Below, in pieces: positions 6,069-52,354 of a DNA stretch of 64,000 nucleotides; the first letter of the stretch is position 1, and each line of letters opens with the position of its first letter. The DNA is from Chromatiales bacterium (lineage in GTDB: Bacteria > Pseudomonadota > Gammaproteobacteria > JAGRGH01). A program made the translations under genes and the position numbers. The notes under the pieces are model-generated. The model was given only the letters and a program-made list of their open reading frames with translations, made no database searches and was not told the origin of the DNA. The stretch covers positions 124,001 through 188,000 of the forward strand of contig JAGRGH010000049.1 of the NCBI GenBank assembly GCA_020445605.1. The letters run 5' to 3'.

Positions 6069-6221
6069 TCAGTTCACCGGGCCGTGGCCGAGGAATCGGA
6101 CCAGAAACATGAACAGCCACGCCGCGGTAAACCCGAGCGCGACCAGCAGCATCAGCGTCCAAGTGCCTTTGGGAGCGGATTCCAGAATGGCGCGCTCCTG
6201 ATCGGGCGAAAGTGAGGCCAT
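6069..6221 (-). CDS. Small single-helix subunit of ba3 oxidase (CbaD/subunit IIa-like)
   Basis: A 50-residue protein with one hydrophobic helix (TWTLMLLVALGFTAAWLFMFLV) between a charged N-terminus and a short basic tail. It is the first gene of the oxidase operon, ends 13 bp before cbaB, and has a strong AGGAGG site 6 nt before its ATG, so translation is very likely. ba3 oxidases have a one-helix subunit IIa that stabilises the complex; position and topology support that role, but sequence identity cannot be judged at this length. Confidence 0.75.
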   Translation of the reverse strand: MASLSPDQERAILESAPKGTWTLMLLVALGFTAAWLFMFLVRFLGHGPVN

Positions 6222-6406
6222 GTAATCCTCCTGTATTGACTGGGTTGTGGTTGTCGTTTTTGATGGGTCGGGACCCAGACCAGCCTGCCGTGGTGCATCG
6301 GTGCTGGCCTTGTTGTTATTCGAGCGAGCCTAGCGCCGCGCCGGAATCGGGTGCTATAACCTGTATCAATCCCCGATGGCTGCCGGCCGTATATCACGGC
6401 AACAGA

Positions 6407-7174
6407 ATGACAACAAAAACCCCAGGCTCCCATGAAAAGCTGGCACAGACCGTTGCCTGCACCGCGTGTCCGGTGCGGCAGATGGCGCTGTTCCGACCCG
6501 TTTCGGACGCGCAGCTCGACTGGACCCAGCGCAATCGCAGCGGTCAGTTGCGGCTTGCATCACATACCCGCGTGTTCGATCAGGGTGCGCGGGTCGAGCA
6601 CTGCTACACGCTGTTCAGCGGCTGGGCGATTCTGCACCGCACCAACGACAATGGTCAGCGTCAGATCCTGCACGTGGCCCTGCCCGGTGATTTCCTGGGA
6701 TTCCAGTCCGACATCGACGGGCCGATGAACCATGGGGTCACGACCGTGACCGAGGCCATCCTGTGCGCGTTCCCGCGTGCGCGCGTGCGCGAGCTGATCA
6801 ACGAGAATTCCGCACTCGCGCAGCAGATGACTTGGATGATCGCGCGCGATCTCGACATCGGTCGCTACCACATCGAGGCCCTGGGCCGTCGCTCCGCCAT
6901 CGAGCGGATCGCCTACCTGCTGCTGGAACTGTTTTATCGCTGTCATGATCGCTGTGCGATCAATGGCGACCTGCTGGAAATGCCGCTGACCCAGGACGAG
7001 ATCGGCGACACCCTCGGCCTGACCAACGTGCACGTGAGTCGCACGCTCGCCGAAATCCACCGGCGCGGACTGATTGATCGGCATGGGCACCAGATCCACT
7101 TTCGCGACCTCGCGACCCTTGGTCACCTGGCGAGCTTCGAACCGCACATGGTCGAGCCAAAGCCGTTGTTTTAG
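6407..7174 (+). CDS. Crp/Fnr-family transcription regulator, FNR-like with incomplete cysteine set
   Basis: This 255-residue regulator has a cyclic-nucleotide-binding fold (about 30-150), a dimer helix and a C-terminal winged helix-turn-helix (LTQDEIGDTLGLTNVHVSRTL). Cysteines are at 18, 21, 66 and 120. Cys18, Cys21 and Cys120 align with E. coli FNR Cys20, Cys23 and Cys122, but the residue matching Cys29 is Ala27. It could hold an Fe-S cluster with a substitute ligand or have lost O2 sensing. The recognition helix keeps the SR pair of FNR-type proteins. The ATG at 6407 is preferred over an upstream in-frame start at 6212, which would overlap the oxidase leader. It is divergent from the oxidase operon and is a candidate for acting on the FNR-type sites at 13422 and 22299. 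Confidence 0.85.
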   Translation: MTTKTPGSHEKLAQTVACTACPVRQMALFRPVSDAQLDWTQRNRSGQLRLASHTRVFDQGARVEHCYTLFSGWAILHRTNDNGQRQILHVALPGDFLGFQSDIDGPMNHGVTTVTEAILCAFPRARVRELINENSALAQQMTWMIARDLDIGRYHIEALGRRSAIERIAYLLLELFYRCHDRCAINGDLLEMPLTQDEIGDTLGLTNVHVSRTLAEIHRRGLIDRHGHQIHFRDLATLGHLASFEPHMVEPKPLF

Positions 7175-7298
7175 CAGGCTGTTGAAATTCTCATTTCAAC
7201 AGCCTGATCACGCGAGACAGGGAGGTCTCGCCCGAAAACCACGCTTTTCGGTTGCGAGGTTGAAAAGGCCATGGATGGGCCTTTTTCAACAACCTTTT
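7172..7298. repeat. Intergenic foldback sequence with two hairpins and imperfect terminal inverted repeats
   Basis: Directly after the regulator's stop lies a near-perfect 14-bp stem with a TCTC loop (7175-7206). A second stem occupies 7258-7294 (GTTGAAAAGGCC against GGCCTTTTTCAAC). The outer ends match as inverted repeats of the form TA-N2-AGG-Y-TGTTGAAA, and TTTTAG occurs at both borders. It may be a small non-autonomous mobile element, or simply two terminators; no reading frame is present. Confidence 0.5.
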
Positions 7299-7344
7299 AG
7301 GGCGACTGCGATCAAGTCATCGTGGCTTGATCGGCGTCTCCTCA

Positions 7345-7497
7345 GGGAAGCTCTGATCAATCCGTCCCGGATTGCCAGAGCTTTGAGCCCGAAAAAGTGT
7401 CATTTTTCGTTTTCTTTCATTTTCAACGTCTTACATCCGTTGAAAATGGCGGCACTTCCCTGTGCCGCGGGAAACTCTGAATTGTTCAGAGTTTCCC
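7345..7497 (-). repeat. Structured dispersed repeat, copy 1 (153 bp)
   Basis: Its ends are imperfect terminal inverted repeats (GGGAAGCTCTGATCAATCC against GGGAAACTCTGAACAATTC), flanked by TCA on both sides. Read on the minus strand it forms three hairpins shared with the copy at 51139-51221, plus an extra segment of about 70 bp with its own 10-bp hairpin (ATTTTCAACG/CGTTGAAAAT). It begins immediately after the hypE stop codon, which is itself part of the TCA duplication. Together with 7172-7298 it fills the 323-bp gap between the regulator and hypE. Confidence 0.7.
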
Positions 7498-8553
7498 TCA
7501 GCAGATGCGCGGCAGCGGATCGTCCTCAAGTTCCTCCAGGTAGCGTTCGCCACCCAGCTCACTTTCGGCGATCACCCGCGGCGTGCCGGGCGCCGGCTCG
7601 ATCTCACCGATGACGCAGGCATCGGCGCCGGCCCGCGTTGCGCGCCAGCGCGCAAGCAGCTCGTCTGCGCAGTGTTCGGCGCAGACGACGACCACCCGCC
7701 CCTCACAGGCCAGATACAGCGGGTCGTAGCCAAGGATCTCGCAGACCGCGCGCACCGGATCGCGTATCGGAATGGCCCGTTCCCGCACCCGTACCTGCAG
7801 ACCCGTCTGCAGCGCGATCTCGTGCAGAACCGTCGCCAACCCGCCGCGCGTCGGATCACGCATGAAGCGAATCCCTGGCATGTCCCATGCAGTTCGGGTC
7901 AACGGCAGCACGCTCGCACAGTCCGAGCGCAGATTGCCGTGCAGACCGAAGGCCTCACGGGCCAGCATCACGGCGATGCCGTGATCGCCGACCGGCCCGC
8001 TCACGATCACCGTATCGCCGGGGCGGATGTTAGTGGCCGACCAGCGCGCATGGCTCGCGCGCACGCCGACGCCGGTGGTCGCCAGATACAGGCCGCCGCC
8101 CTCGCCCCGATTGAGAACCTTCGTGTCACCCGCAACCACAACAACACCCGCGGCCGCCGCCGCATTGGCGAGGCTCGCGACGATCCGCTCCAGCGTCGCG
8201 ATTTCGAAGCCCTCTTCAATGAAGGCGTTCAGGGTCAGATACAGGGGCCGCCCCCCGGCCACGGCCAGATCGTTGACTGTGCCGTGTACGGCCAGAGAAC
8301 CGATGTCGCCGCCCGGGAACTCCAGCGGCTGCACCGTGAAACCGTCGGTCGTCACCAGCGGTTCACCGTCGAGCACTGGAAGCGAGGCGGCGTCCGCACT
8401 GGGGTCCAGCAACGGGTTGGCGAGTGCGCGGGCGAAGACCTCGTCGATCAGTTCGCGCATGAAACGCCCGCCGTTGCCATGCGCGAGTCCGATGTGGGTG
8501 TCGGTCAGTTCCGCACGCTTCGAACGCCGGTTGCCGGCCATCGAGGTTCCCAT
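7498..8553 (-). CDS. hypE: [NiFe]-hydrogenase maturation factor HypE
   Basis: HypE dehydrates the carboxamide that HypF places on its C-terminal cysteine, giving the thiocyanate used as the cyanide ligand source for the active-site iron. The 351-residue protein ends in PRIC, the required C-terminal Cys. It has the PurM/AIR-synthase fold, with VTTDGFTVQPLEFPGGDIGSLAVHG (split here between ATP-binding residues) and the loop MRDPTRGG. The ATG at 8553 lies 4 bp after the hypF stop; longer frames enter hypF. It is the last gene of hypCABDFE, followed at once by a repeat element. Confidence 0.95.
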   Translation of the reverse strand: MGTSMAGNRRSKRAELTDTHIGLAHGNGGRFMRELIDEVFARALANPLLDPSADAASLPVLDGEPLVTTDGFTVQPLEFPGGDIGSLAVHGTVNDLAVAGGRPLYLTLNAFIEEGFEIATLERIVASLANAAAAAGVVVVAGDTKVLNRGEGGGLYLATTGVGVRASHARWSATNIRPGDTVIVSGPVGDHGIAVMLAREAFGLHGNLRSDCASVLPLTRTAWDMPGIRFMRDPTRGGLATVLHEIALQTGLQVRVRERAIPIRDPVRAVCEILGYDPLYLACEGRVVVVCAEHCADELLARWRATRAGADACVIGEIEPAPGTPRVIAESELGGERYLEELEDDPLPRIC

Positions 8554-20040: not shown

Positions 20041-20763
20041 TTGAGCGGACTGTCCCGAAACCTGCTTGAAAGTGCCCGCGACCTGGCCCCGATCATCGGG
20101 GTCATCGCGTTTTTCCAGATCGTCGTCCTCGGTCAGCCCCTGCCTCGGTTCTGGGAGCTGCTGTACGGCACCGCACTGGTGCTGGTCGGCCTTGCCCTGT
20201 TCGTGCGTGGACTCCAGCTCGGCCTGTTTCCGATCGGCGAATCGCTGGCCTGGTCGTTTGCGCGCAAGGGCAGCCTGTTCTGGCTGCTGGCCTTTGCCTT
20301 CGCGCTAGGCTTCGGCACCACGGTCGCCGAGCCGGCGTTGATCGCCGTTGCCGACGAAGCGGCCGTGGTCGCGGCCGACGGCGGCATGATCGAATCCACC
20401 GCCGACGCCAGGGACCGCTACGCCACGGGCCTGCGTTACACCGTCGCGGTCTCAGTCGGTTTCGCGATCGTGCTCGGCGTGCTGCGCATCGCGCTCGGCT
20501 GGCCGCTGCCGGCGCTGATCATCGGTGGTTACATCGGCGTGGTGGTGATGACCTATTTCGCGCCACACGAAATCATCGGCATCGCCTACGACGCGGGCGG
20601 CGTGACGACCTCGACGATCACCGTGCCGCTGGTAACGGCACTGGGCGTCGGGCTCGCCTCCAGCATCCGCGGCCGCAACCCGCTGGTCGACGGCTTCGGG
20701 CTGATCGCGTTCGCCTCGCTGACGCCGATGATTTTCGTCATGGGCTACGGGATGGTCGTATGA
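20041..20763 (+). CDS. DUF1538 membrane protein, first copy
   Basis: A 240-residue protein with about seven hydrophobic segments. Two segments look functional: [15 protein letters not shown] and [17 protein letters not shown]. Both recur in the next gene, so the pair likely forms a heterodimeric membrane channel or transporter. The TTG start is chosen because it aligns the N-terminus ([11 protein letters not shown]) with that of the second copy ([15 protein letters not shown]); no ATG is available. It overlaps the next gene by ATGA. Function and substrate are unknown. Confidence 0.8.
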
Positions 20764-21521
20764 GCGAGCGCCTGCTGCACCTCCTGCACACGCTTGCGGG
20801 CACCGTGTGGGATGTCGCCCCGATTGCGCTGGTGATCGTGGTCTTCCAGGTCGCCGTCATTCGCAAGCCGATCGAGCATCCAAGGCGAATCGTGGCCGGT
20901 TTTGTCTACGTACTGCTCGGGCTGACGCTGTTTCTCGAGGGGCTCGAGGTCGCGCTGTTTCCGCTTGGCAAGCTCATGGCTGAACAGTTGACGGCCGGTT
21001 ATACGGGCGGCAGCCCGTTCGCGCCGGAATATCTGACCGTGTATGCCTTCGCGGCCGCGATCGGCTTTGCCACGACGCTCGCCGAGCCTTCGCTGATCGC
21101 CGTCGCGATCAAGGCCGGACAGGTCTCGGGCGGTGCCATCGGGGCGTGGCCGCTGCGCCTCGCCGTGGCCATCGGCGTGGCGATCGGCATCGCGCTCGGC
21201 GCATGGCGCATCGTGACCGGCACGCCGCTGTACTACTACATCATCACCGGCTATGTGCTGGTGCTGATCCAGACGGCGTTCGCACCGCGCATGATCATTG
21301 CGCTCGCCTACGACTCCGGCGGCGTGACGACCTCGACGGTGACCGTACCGCTGGTGGCCGCCCTGGGCCTGGGTCTCGCCTCGCATATCCCGGGGCGCAG
21401 CCCGCTGCTCGACGGCTTCGGACTGATCGCCTTCGCGAGCCTTTTCCCGATCATGACCGTGCTCGGTTACGCGCAGATTTCGCACTGGCGCGCGCGCGTG
21501 AGGCGCGCCGCCAAAGAATGA
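20760..21521 (+). CDS. DUF1538 membrane protein, second copy
   Basis: A 253-residue paralogue of the preceding protein with the same helix layout and the same two motifs ([32 protein letters not shown]) and a basic C-terminal tail ([10 protein letters not shown]) likely facing the cytoplasm. Many DUF1538 proteins elsewhere carry both halves in one chain, so this may be a split version. The following PII-like and CBS proteins suggest ligand-controlled transport. Confidence 0.82.
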
Positions 21522-28114: not shown

Positions 28115-28687
28115 ATGCCGCGCGCGGATGTCCCGCGCGCGGTGCTCTGCTCGGGGTTTCTTTCCTGCCTGACGGCGCTCGCTGACGCGGCGCCGTTCGA
28201 TCGACTGCATACCGTGGCGGAAGCCCCGCTGCCGACGCCGCGCGAGGTCGGTGAGTTGGTCGTGCATCCACGGCCGCTGCTCGAATCGCTGGGGGCCGCC
28301 GATCTCAGCCTGGTCTCGCCGCACGAACAGGTCGATCTCGGTCGTGCCGGCGACCGGTTTGCACCGGCGGGTGTTTCCCCGACATCGTTGATCGCCCGTC
28401 GTACCCTGCCGGTCCTGTGGCGTCTGCGCGTCCGGGATGCCGCCGAAGCCACCTCGCTGAGTGTGCGCTATCAGGCCGGCGTCGGTGCTGACGGCTGGCT
28501 CGAACACGACAGTGCGCCGCAATCCCGAATCGCGATTCAGGTGCAACCCCTGCCGCTGGACTGGTATTCGTCGGGTGACGACGGGGTGATTGTCGACGGT
28601 GGTGTTGAACTCGAATTTGACCTTGGCGAAGCGACTCGGGCCGGGCGCTATTCCGGTACATTGATCATCGAGTTCGGCCGGATCTAG
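28115..28687 (+). CDS. Secreted protein of the chaperone-usher operon, possible minor or tip subunit
   Basis: A 190-residue protein with a signal-like N-terminus (VLCSGFLSCLTALADA). The C-terminal segment FDLGEATRAGRYSGTLIIEF looks like the terminal beta-strands of fimbrial subunits or DUF4402-like proteins. It starts 11 bp after the first gene. Its TAG stop overlaps the left border of the inserted foldback element. Function is inferred from position. Confidence 0.6.
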   Translation: MPRADVPRAVLCSGFLSCLTALADAAPFDRLHTVAEAPLPTPREVGELVVHPRPLLESLGAADLSLVSPHEQVDLGRAGDRFAPAGVSPTSLIARRTLPVLWRLRVRDAAEATSLSVRYQAGVGADGWLEHDSAPQSRIAIQVQPLPLDWYSSGDDGVIVDGGVELEFDLGEATRAGRYSGTLIIEFGRI

Positions 28688-28948
28688 TGGGCCAAGTGGA
28701 AAGTTCTATGACACTCAGAGCCACAGTGCGAGTGCGAATCAAGGCGCGTTTCGCGGGCAATGGCCCCGCCCTTGGCAAGAAACGCAACACAGAGTCGCGC
28801 GCGCACAGCGGCTCCCGAAGGGCCGCGCCACAGGCATCGTGGGCGGTGTTGCAGTCCTTGGAAAGGGCCTGCCATTCCCTGCGGACTGCGCCTTGCCCAC
28901 AATGCCTGTGGCGTGGCTGAGTGTTACAGAACTTTCCACTTGGCCCAC
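28687..28948. mobile_element. 262-bp foldback (MITE-like) element inserted at CTAG
   Basis: The ends carry a perfect 21-bp terminal inverted repeat starting GTGGGCCAAGTGGAAAG, and homology between the arms continues imperfectly for about 100 bp each, so nearly the whole element folds back. It is flanked by TA on both sides (28685-28686, 28949-28950); removing it and one TA restores C-TA-G. Insertion at CTAG with TA duplication is the habit of IS630-type transposases, so it is probably a non-autonomous derivative. No transposase is encoded. It splits an operon between two genes that would otherwise be 6 bp apart. Confidence 0.8.
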
Positions 28949-28956
28949 TAGCCCCC

Positions 28957-51118: not shown

Positions 51119-51138
51119 GTCGGGGTTCAGTTCGCCAA

Positions 51139-51221
51139 GGAAGCTCTGAACAATTCAGAGTTTGCCGCGGCACATGGAGGTGCCGCCCTGGCAATCCTGG
51201 AAGGATTGATCAGGGCTTCCC
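51139..51221 (+). repeat. Structured dispersed repeat, copy 2 (83 bp)
   Basis: Same family as 7345-7497 but without the extra segment. It folds into three consecutive hairpins: CTCTGAA-CAA-TTCAGAG, GCGGCAC-ATGGAG-GTGCCGC and CAATCCT-GGA-AGGATTG. In the third, the innermost T-A pair is G-C in copy 1, a compensatory change. Its last base forms part of the oadB stop codon. Confidence 0.75.
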
Positions 51222-52354
51222 TAACCCAGTACCGACAAGAGCACGCCGGCCGCGACGGCCGAGCCGATGACCCCCGCGACATTCGGCCCCATCGCGTGCA
51301 TGAGCAGAAAATTGTGCGGATCGGTCTCGTGTCCGACCTTGTTCGCAACGCGCGCGGCCATCGGCACCGCGGACACGCCGGCCGCGCCGATCAGCGGATT
51401 GACCTGCCCCTTGCTGATCCGGTACATGATCTTGCCCATCAGCACGCCGGTTGCGGTGCCGATCGTAAACGCCACGGCACCGAGCGCAAGGATGCCCAGG
51501 GTCTCCAGGCTCAGGAACTTTTCGGCCTGCAATTTCGAACCCACGGCCAGCCCGAGAAAGATCGTCACGATGTTGATGATCTCGTTCTGTGCGGCCTTGC
51601 TCAGACGCTCGACGACGCCGGATTCGCGCAACAGGTTGCCCAGCGTGAGCATGCCGATCAGCGGCGCGGCCGAGGGCAGGAGCATCGCGCACAGCAGCAG
51701 CACCATCAGCGGAAACAGGACACGTTCGGCGCGGCTCACGGGCCGCAACTGCTGCATGACCGTGGCGCGTTCCTTTTTCGTCGTCAGCAGCCGCATGATC
51801 GGTGGCTGAATCAGCGGCACCAGCGCCATATACGAATACGCAGCAACGGCGATGGCACCGAGCAGGTCGGGCGCGAGTTTTGACGCGAGAAAGATCGCGG
51901 TCGGGCCGTCCGCGCCGCCGATGATCGCAATGGCCGCGGCATCCTTCAGGGTGAAATCGAAGCCCGGCACCATGTTGAGCGCCAGCGCGCCGAGCAGCGT
52001 CGCGAAGATGCCGAACTGCGCGGCGGCGCCGAGAAACAGGGTCGATGGCCGCGCGATCAGCGGCCCGAAGTCCGTCAAAGCGCCGACGCCCATGAAAATC
52101 AGCAGCGGAAACACCCCGCTGCCGATACCGACGTCATAGAGATGCCCGAGGAGCCCACCCGGCTCCGCGATGCCGGCGAGCGGAATGTTGCTGAGCACAG
52201 CGCCGAATCCGATCGGCAACAGCAGCAGGGGTTCGAAACCGCGGGCAATCGCGAGCCACATCAGCAGACAGCCCACGCCGATCATCAGCGCGGCATCCCA
52301 GCCCAGGTTCGCAAGGCCGGTGGACTGCCACAGATGCAGGAGTCCGAGTTCCAT
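51221..52354 (-). CDS. oadB: Na+-translocating oxaloacetate decarboxylase subunit beta
   Basis: A 377-residue membrane subunit that decarboxylates carboxybiotin and exports Na+. Signatures include [24 protein letters not shown], the buried Asp in [12 protein letters not shown] and the late [15 protein letters not shown] region. The stop TAG uses TA from the gene and G from the adjoining repeat, so the original C-terminus may have been slightly different. Confidence 0.96.

Follow-up and report, generated by a model that had tools for sequence, protein, structure and literature searches.

An IS5-type MITE with a covarying five-hairpin fold and putative CsrA-type loops on one RNA strand

The repeat under study, found within a window of 64,000 nucleotides (the whole stretch of DNA analyzed here), is almost certainly an IS5-type MITE. 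Judging from sequence, the best explanation of its structure, to which we give a little better than even weight, is an IS5-mobilized MITE whose transcript from one strand is a putative two-site CsrA/Rsm ligand. Taken by itself, a CsrA-binding role for one RNA strand seems moderately probable. Somewhat more tentatively, and with confidence just below even, the family may represent a widespread class of non-autonomous transposons that carry a putative CsrA/RsmA-binding RNA cargo and have swapped their ends to follow different transposases. MITEs are usually viewed as passive insertion-sequence debris. The present element, which reaches dozens of copies in a genome or more, retains two particular loops and a fold like that of an RNA across different taxonomic families and classes.

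Copies, borders and distribution

A preliminary description had reported a dispersed repeat in two copies with shared terminal inverted repeats. Both copies are real, and both loci stand; the true extents are 7346–7496 and 51139–51220, a single flanking G at 7345 lying outside copy 1, and the terminal inverted repeats abut target duplications. The elements of the window and their borders are as follows.

7346–7496, plus strand (H1 to H5): copy 1, full-length element, 151 nt
7341–7344, unstranded: left target duplication of copy 1, CTCA (CTCAG if 5 bp)
7497–7500, unstranded: right target duplication of copy 1, CTCA, overlapping the TGA stop of a minus-strand hypE-like gene
51139–51220, minus strand: copy 2, short form with H1, H4 and H5 only, 82 nt; its GGA strand is the window plus strand
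51221–51224, unstranded: right target duplication of copy 2, CTAA, overlapping the TAG stop of an oadB-like gene
7175–7296, minus strand: third element, of related architecture with other ends (GGCTGTTGAAA...) and without H3; its GGA strand is the plus strand
7171–7174, second copy 7297–7300, unstranded: target duplication of the third element, TTAG, containing a TAG stop

The left border repeat of copy 2, CCAA (51135–51138), differs from the right one by one change, and the TAG within 7171–7174 terminates a Crp/Fnr-type regulator gene (6212–7174). Direct repeats border all three elements of the window, and at each element one of these repeats includes or overlaps a neighboring gene's stop codon. 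Copies 1 and 2 are mutually inverted, with 49-nt arms that are 92% and 38-nt arms that are 89% complementary. Copy 2 is a deletion form that has lost H2 and H3, and the same short form occurs in another genome (L068:2524–2604); the ~151-nt long form is the common one and looks ancestral. The third element, a distant relative, adjoins copy 1, matches the covariance model (E = 1.6e-6) and has the hairpin order of the other copies despite its different ends. Elsewhere in the window, a 232-nt direct repeat (20518–21471; 71% identical, spacing 722) is probably a tandemly duplicated coding sequence.

The family occupies at least 50 places in the source genome, a 3.36-Mb draft. A covariance-model search of relatives, the check proposed in the preliminary description, recovered the element in 72 of 369 genomes sampled from the class, and a second model recovered it in 49 of 398 genomes sampled from the phylum, the majority of them lying beyond the class; full-length copies measure ~151 nt across families. 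The complete genome G124 has 164 candidate places, where 40 scored copies are 97–100% identical to the query and constitute a recent burst; the source-genome copies are older. A first, over-strict pattern scan of named genomes returned no matches, and a second returned 27 places in environmental Gammaproteobacteria MAGs, groundwater included. The element was not found in the plasmids and phages searched. The literature searched yielded no match to its sequence, no description of it and no paper tying MITEs to CsrA motifs.

Most copies adjoin the 3′ ends of genes, as had been predicted: flanking gene ends, with genes called by a simple codon-usage script, numbered 80 3′ versus 42 in two genomes (p = 0.0007) and 146 versus 102 overall (p = 0.006). 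Elements are also enriched between convergent genes. The 3′-end bias arises partly because the YTAR target often contains a stop codon. Together with the stability of the hairpins, this placement is what would be expected of an intergenic transcription terminator or mRNA-end stabilizer merely copied many times, a reading that we regard as highly improbable: the last hairpin is not followed by a T-run (none was seen by eye 3′ of H1), the target duplications indicate transposition, and neither the fixed GGA of the loops nor the short form would be explained. Relative to upstream genes, the GGA strand was sense in 35 cases and antisense in 29 (p = 0.53); there is no orientation bias, and read-through use of individual copies is therefore not under visible selection.

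Transposition and IS5-family partners

Exact 4-bp border duplications with the consensus YTAR flank 27 of 30 copies in G124 and 14 of 36 in the source genome, against 1.8 expected from shuffling, and copies are inserted inside or beside one another and into other repeats. The element thus shows the hallmarks of a MITE, being multi-copy, short and without coding capacity, with terminal inverted repeats and target duplications. Autonomous elements of 1158–1220 bp sharing the same terminal inverted repeats and 4-bp duplications were identified in five genomes (G303, G080, G124, G261 and G090); their termini, for example GGAACCTCTGATTAATT or GGATGCTCTGAACAAGT, are flanked by YTAR-like duplications, and their transposases belong to the IS5 family (NF033581, E to 1e-105; PF01609 and PF05598). 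An IS5 derivation is further indicated by the combination of a DDE transposase, ends beginning GGAA and a 4-bp YTAR target. A PF01609 gene is present in 11 of 17 element-rich genomes; no PF01609/IS5 transposase was found in the source genome, and draft assemblies lose IS copies. When IS and MITE ends are matched within the same genome, the diagonal is only partial, since a single consensus is common to all ends; the clearest case is G261, with GCGCTGA or ACGCTGA in both. We infer that an IS5 transposase moves the element.

The palindromic, intergenic character of the element, its position at 3′ ends and the two Y1_Tnp genes of the source genome would also suit an element of the REP/BIME/REPIN type, mobilized by a RAYT (Y1) transposase. 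We consider this scarcely credible, as the duplications are 4 bp long and the ends match IS5-family elements. A RAYT/REP origin was rejected on the sole Y1 gene flank examined, which has a repeat of another kind and lacks the element's ends. A different REP-like repeat (GGGCTCTGACCCCTTTTTATAGGGCTCTGCCCCC) adjoins a RAYT-like Y1 transposase gene of the source genome (L045:1900–2060).

Several other observations concern ends. Subfamilies found at L183, L184, L186, L190, L194, L200, L206 and L208 have the five-hairpin order despite quite different ends, among them GGGTGTCGTAAAACGAC, GGCCGTTGAAAAAC, GGGCACCTCGAAAA and GGACACGCCGAAG. In another class of the phylum, L241–L244 terminate in sequences such as GGATACTCTGA, and their H4 stems include GGCC..GGCC; the CsrA-type loop is mostly retained, one of them having AGA in place of GGA. 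Within the window, a 35-nt inverted repeat (94%) surrounds 198 nt at 28684–28951, with CTAG at both extremes and ends TGGGCCAAGTGGAAAGTTCTATGACACTCAG; it resembles a further MITE, or the remains of an IS, flanked by a CTAG duplication.

Hairpins, covariation and conserved loops

The hairpins of copy 1, and the corresponding loops of copy 2, are located as follows.

7347–7384, plus strand: H1; loop TCC at 7365–7367, GGA on the minus strand
7390–7409, plus strand: H2, A/T-rich stem with a GYG loop; missing from copy 2
7418–7448, plus strand: H3; missing from copy 2
7449–7468, minus strand: H4; six-base loop at 7456–7461, AGGGAA on the minus strand
7469–7496, plus strand: H5, the opposite transposon end
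51167–51186, plus strand: H4 of copy 2; loop ATGGAG in ACATGGAGGT, which matches CANGGANG
51199–51201, plus strand: loop GGA in H1 of copy 2

Three hairpins had been described as common to both copies, and H1, H4 and H5 are indeed present in each; the added segment of copy 1, to which one hairpin had been ascribed, holds two (H2 and H3). The compensatory change that had been noted is real, T-A being replaced by C-G (G-C on the other strand) in the GCYCTG..CAGRGC hairpin. Folding exceeds chance by a wide margin: compared with shuffled sequence, it gave z-scores of −11.3 for copy 1 and −4.2 for copy 2, and −9.4 and −5.9, respectively, on the opposite strand. In an alignment of 32 copies, one per genome, with 91% paired cells, both sides had changed at 37 of 58 stem pairs; the covariation score was 0.308 versus 0.112 for shuffled alignments, none of 500 shuffles reached it, and slid controls scored 0.063–0.134. 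Covariation is strong in the stems and absent from the loops, and the five-hairpin order is retained across some 60 genomes. These figures support the earlier suggestion of selection on RNA or DNA structure, with the proviso that the element sequences are related and cannot be counted as independent trials.

Since mechanisms that repair imperfect palindromes could contribute, selection at the RNA level is not proved by the covariation on its own. An IS5-mobilized MITE might have hairpins of consequence solely at the DNA level, or ones that do no harm in RNA, its perfect stems being kept by transposition chemistry, cruciform or hairpin-templated mutation (quasi-palindrome correction) and its loops being conserved through some constraint, by a protein or otherwise, unconnected with CsrA. 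The stems are 94–96% Watson–Crick with few G-U pairs, as template-switch correction would give, and the missing orientation bias points the same way. We nevertheless hold this account to be rather unlikely, because the element's hairpins are missing from the partner IS ends and because of the loops themselves.

The preliminary description held that loops differ freely; to the contrary, the H1 and H4 loops are among the most conserved parts of the element. In the H5-to-H1 direction, the H4 loop reads CANGGANG, the CsrA/RsmE consensus. In copy 1, AGGGAA lies inside ACAGGGAAGU on the minus strand and conforms to the consensus ACANGGANGU; the RNA of this strand reads GGCACAGGGAAGUGCC, with AGGGAA as its six-base loop. 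The plus-strand loops of the third element are ACAGGGAGGT (H4) and CCATGGATGG (H1). The published CsrA/RsmE motif is A/UCANGGANGU/A, and SELEX yielded RUACARGGAUGU in six-base loops (PMC5864733, PMC7652899). Across the 32-genome set, the H4 motif letters were invariant except for one deletion, and the two N positions varied. A broader set of 63 elements, many of them unrelated in ends and stems, gave H4 letter counts of C57 A60 N G61 G61 A61 N G56. The full CANGGANG match in a hexaloop occurred in 50 of the 63; the full motif was found in H1 of 17, most H1 hairpins having no unpaired A. A loop GGA was present in H4 and in H1 of 59 elements each, and was rare in H2 (1/63), H3 (4/63) and H5 (3/63). 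Both loops are retained by relatives with wholly different ends, the third element of the window among them, and H4 and H1 survive in the short form, from which H2 and H3 are lost. Loop letters fixed in 56–61 of 63 elements while adjacent letters vary, and agreement with the CsrA consensus letter by letter, including the unpaired A and two free N, are hard to reconcile with structure-only conservation and argue for the CsrA-ligand explanation. Features that count against CsrA are the scarcity of the full motif in H1 and the H4 stem, which has 7 GC-rich pairs; most SELEX ligands have four or fewer.

The same conservation can be read on the other strand, as TCC in the H1 and H4 loops of the plus strand. 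The plus-strand RNA would then be the functional one, its UCC loops pairing with mRNA Shine–Dalgarno sequences, like the C-rich loops of some sRNAs. This is highly improbable in our estimation, since an anti-Shine–Dalgarno loop does not need the conserved H4 T after the free N (the A of CANGGANG) and non-Watson–Crick pairs lean to the opposite strand (83 G-U versus 60 A-C on the GGA strand, p = 0.065, weak and suggestive at most). Sub-threshold Rsm matches likewise fall on the opposite strand: an Rfam search of the window gave no match, and at a permissive cut RsmV, of the Csr/Rsm clan, matched the GGA strand in 3 of 5 loci at 14–15 bits against a gathering score of 100, which does not place the element in a curated Rfam Csr/Rsm family.

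The CsrA encoded by the source genome is close to that of E. coli and has L4 and R44. The gene csrA does not separate hosts from non-hosts (64 of 72 versus 249 of 297) and is uninformative as a discriminator because CsrA is too common in the class; the 8 hosts without a detected csrA are mostly incomplete assemblies.

Proposed mechanism and comparison with known systems

Under the CsrA-ligand explanation, the region between and including the ends would encode a five-hairpin RNA, and the strand read H5-H4-H3-H2-H1 would expose two GGA loops, in H4 (CANGGANG) and H1, that could bind CsrA/RsmA. Transcripts through the element would then act as small CsrA ligands (decoys), or the neighboring mRNA end would come under Csr influence. 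The stems, including those of the transposon ends, would be free to change while pairing holds; as they need only pair, subfamilies could have switched ends yet kept the two loops. As to what the element gains, it might supply a CsrA decoy RNA or stabilize read-through transcripts, or it might descend from a Csr-type sRNA that IS5 ends captured. If the loops bind CsrA, a transposon titrates or recruits a global regulator, and Csr regulons would vary between strains with element load. The broader, end-swapping class would, if real, be a bacterial counterpart of mobile elements derived from RNA genes, flooding genomes with CsrA decoys and rewiring the Csr network. The family offers a testable case of a selfish element retaining a putative host-protein-binding RNA.

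ERIC, BOX and Correia elements and REPINs are likewise dispersed and intergenic, with transcripts that fold into hairpins; the ends and loops of the present element are different, and we know of none among them with conserved CsrA-type loops. QMITE1 and QMITE2 of Coxiella burnetii are also MITEs and give rise to sRNAs, and QMITE2, at 150–190 bp and located in 3′ UTRs, also exists in a small form; as published, however, the description differs in the 7–11-nt direct repeats of QMITE2 and a GTAG REP, and mentions no CsrA motif (PMC5896051). With the CsrA/RsmA antagonists CsrB/CsrC and RsmX/Y/Z/V/W (PMC7652899), the element shares GGA in hairpin loops, the A/UCANGGANGU/A motif and the weak, sub-threshold RsmV match; the arrangement of several GGA hairpin loops on one RNA strand, typical of CsrB/RsmZ, is represented by two. 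Unlike those sRNAs, it is mobile and multi-copy, has only two GGA loops and no recognized terminator, and scores below the gathering score of every Rfam family. Bacterial IS5-type MITEs, reviewed without mention of a CsrA link (PMC10969869), are similarly short and without an ORF, with terminal inverted repeats, 4-bp duplications and autonomous relatives with identical ends in related genomes. What sets the element apart from them is a covarying five-hairpin form of ~151 nt maintained across families and classes, together with its conserved GGA loops.
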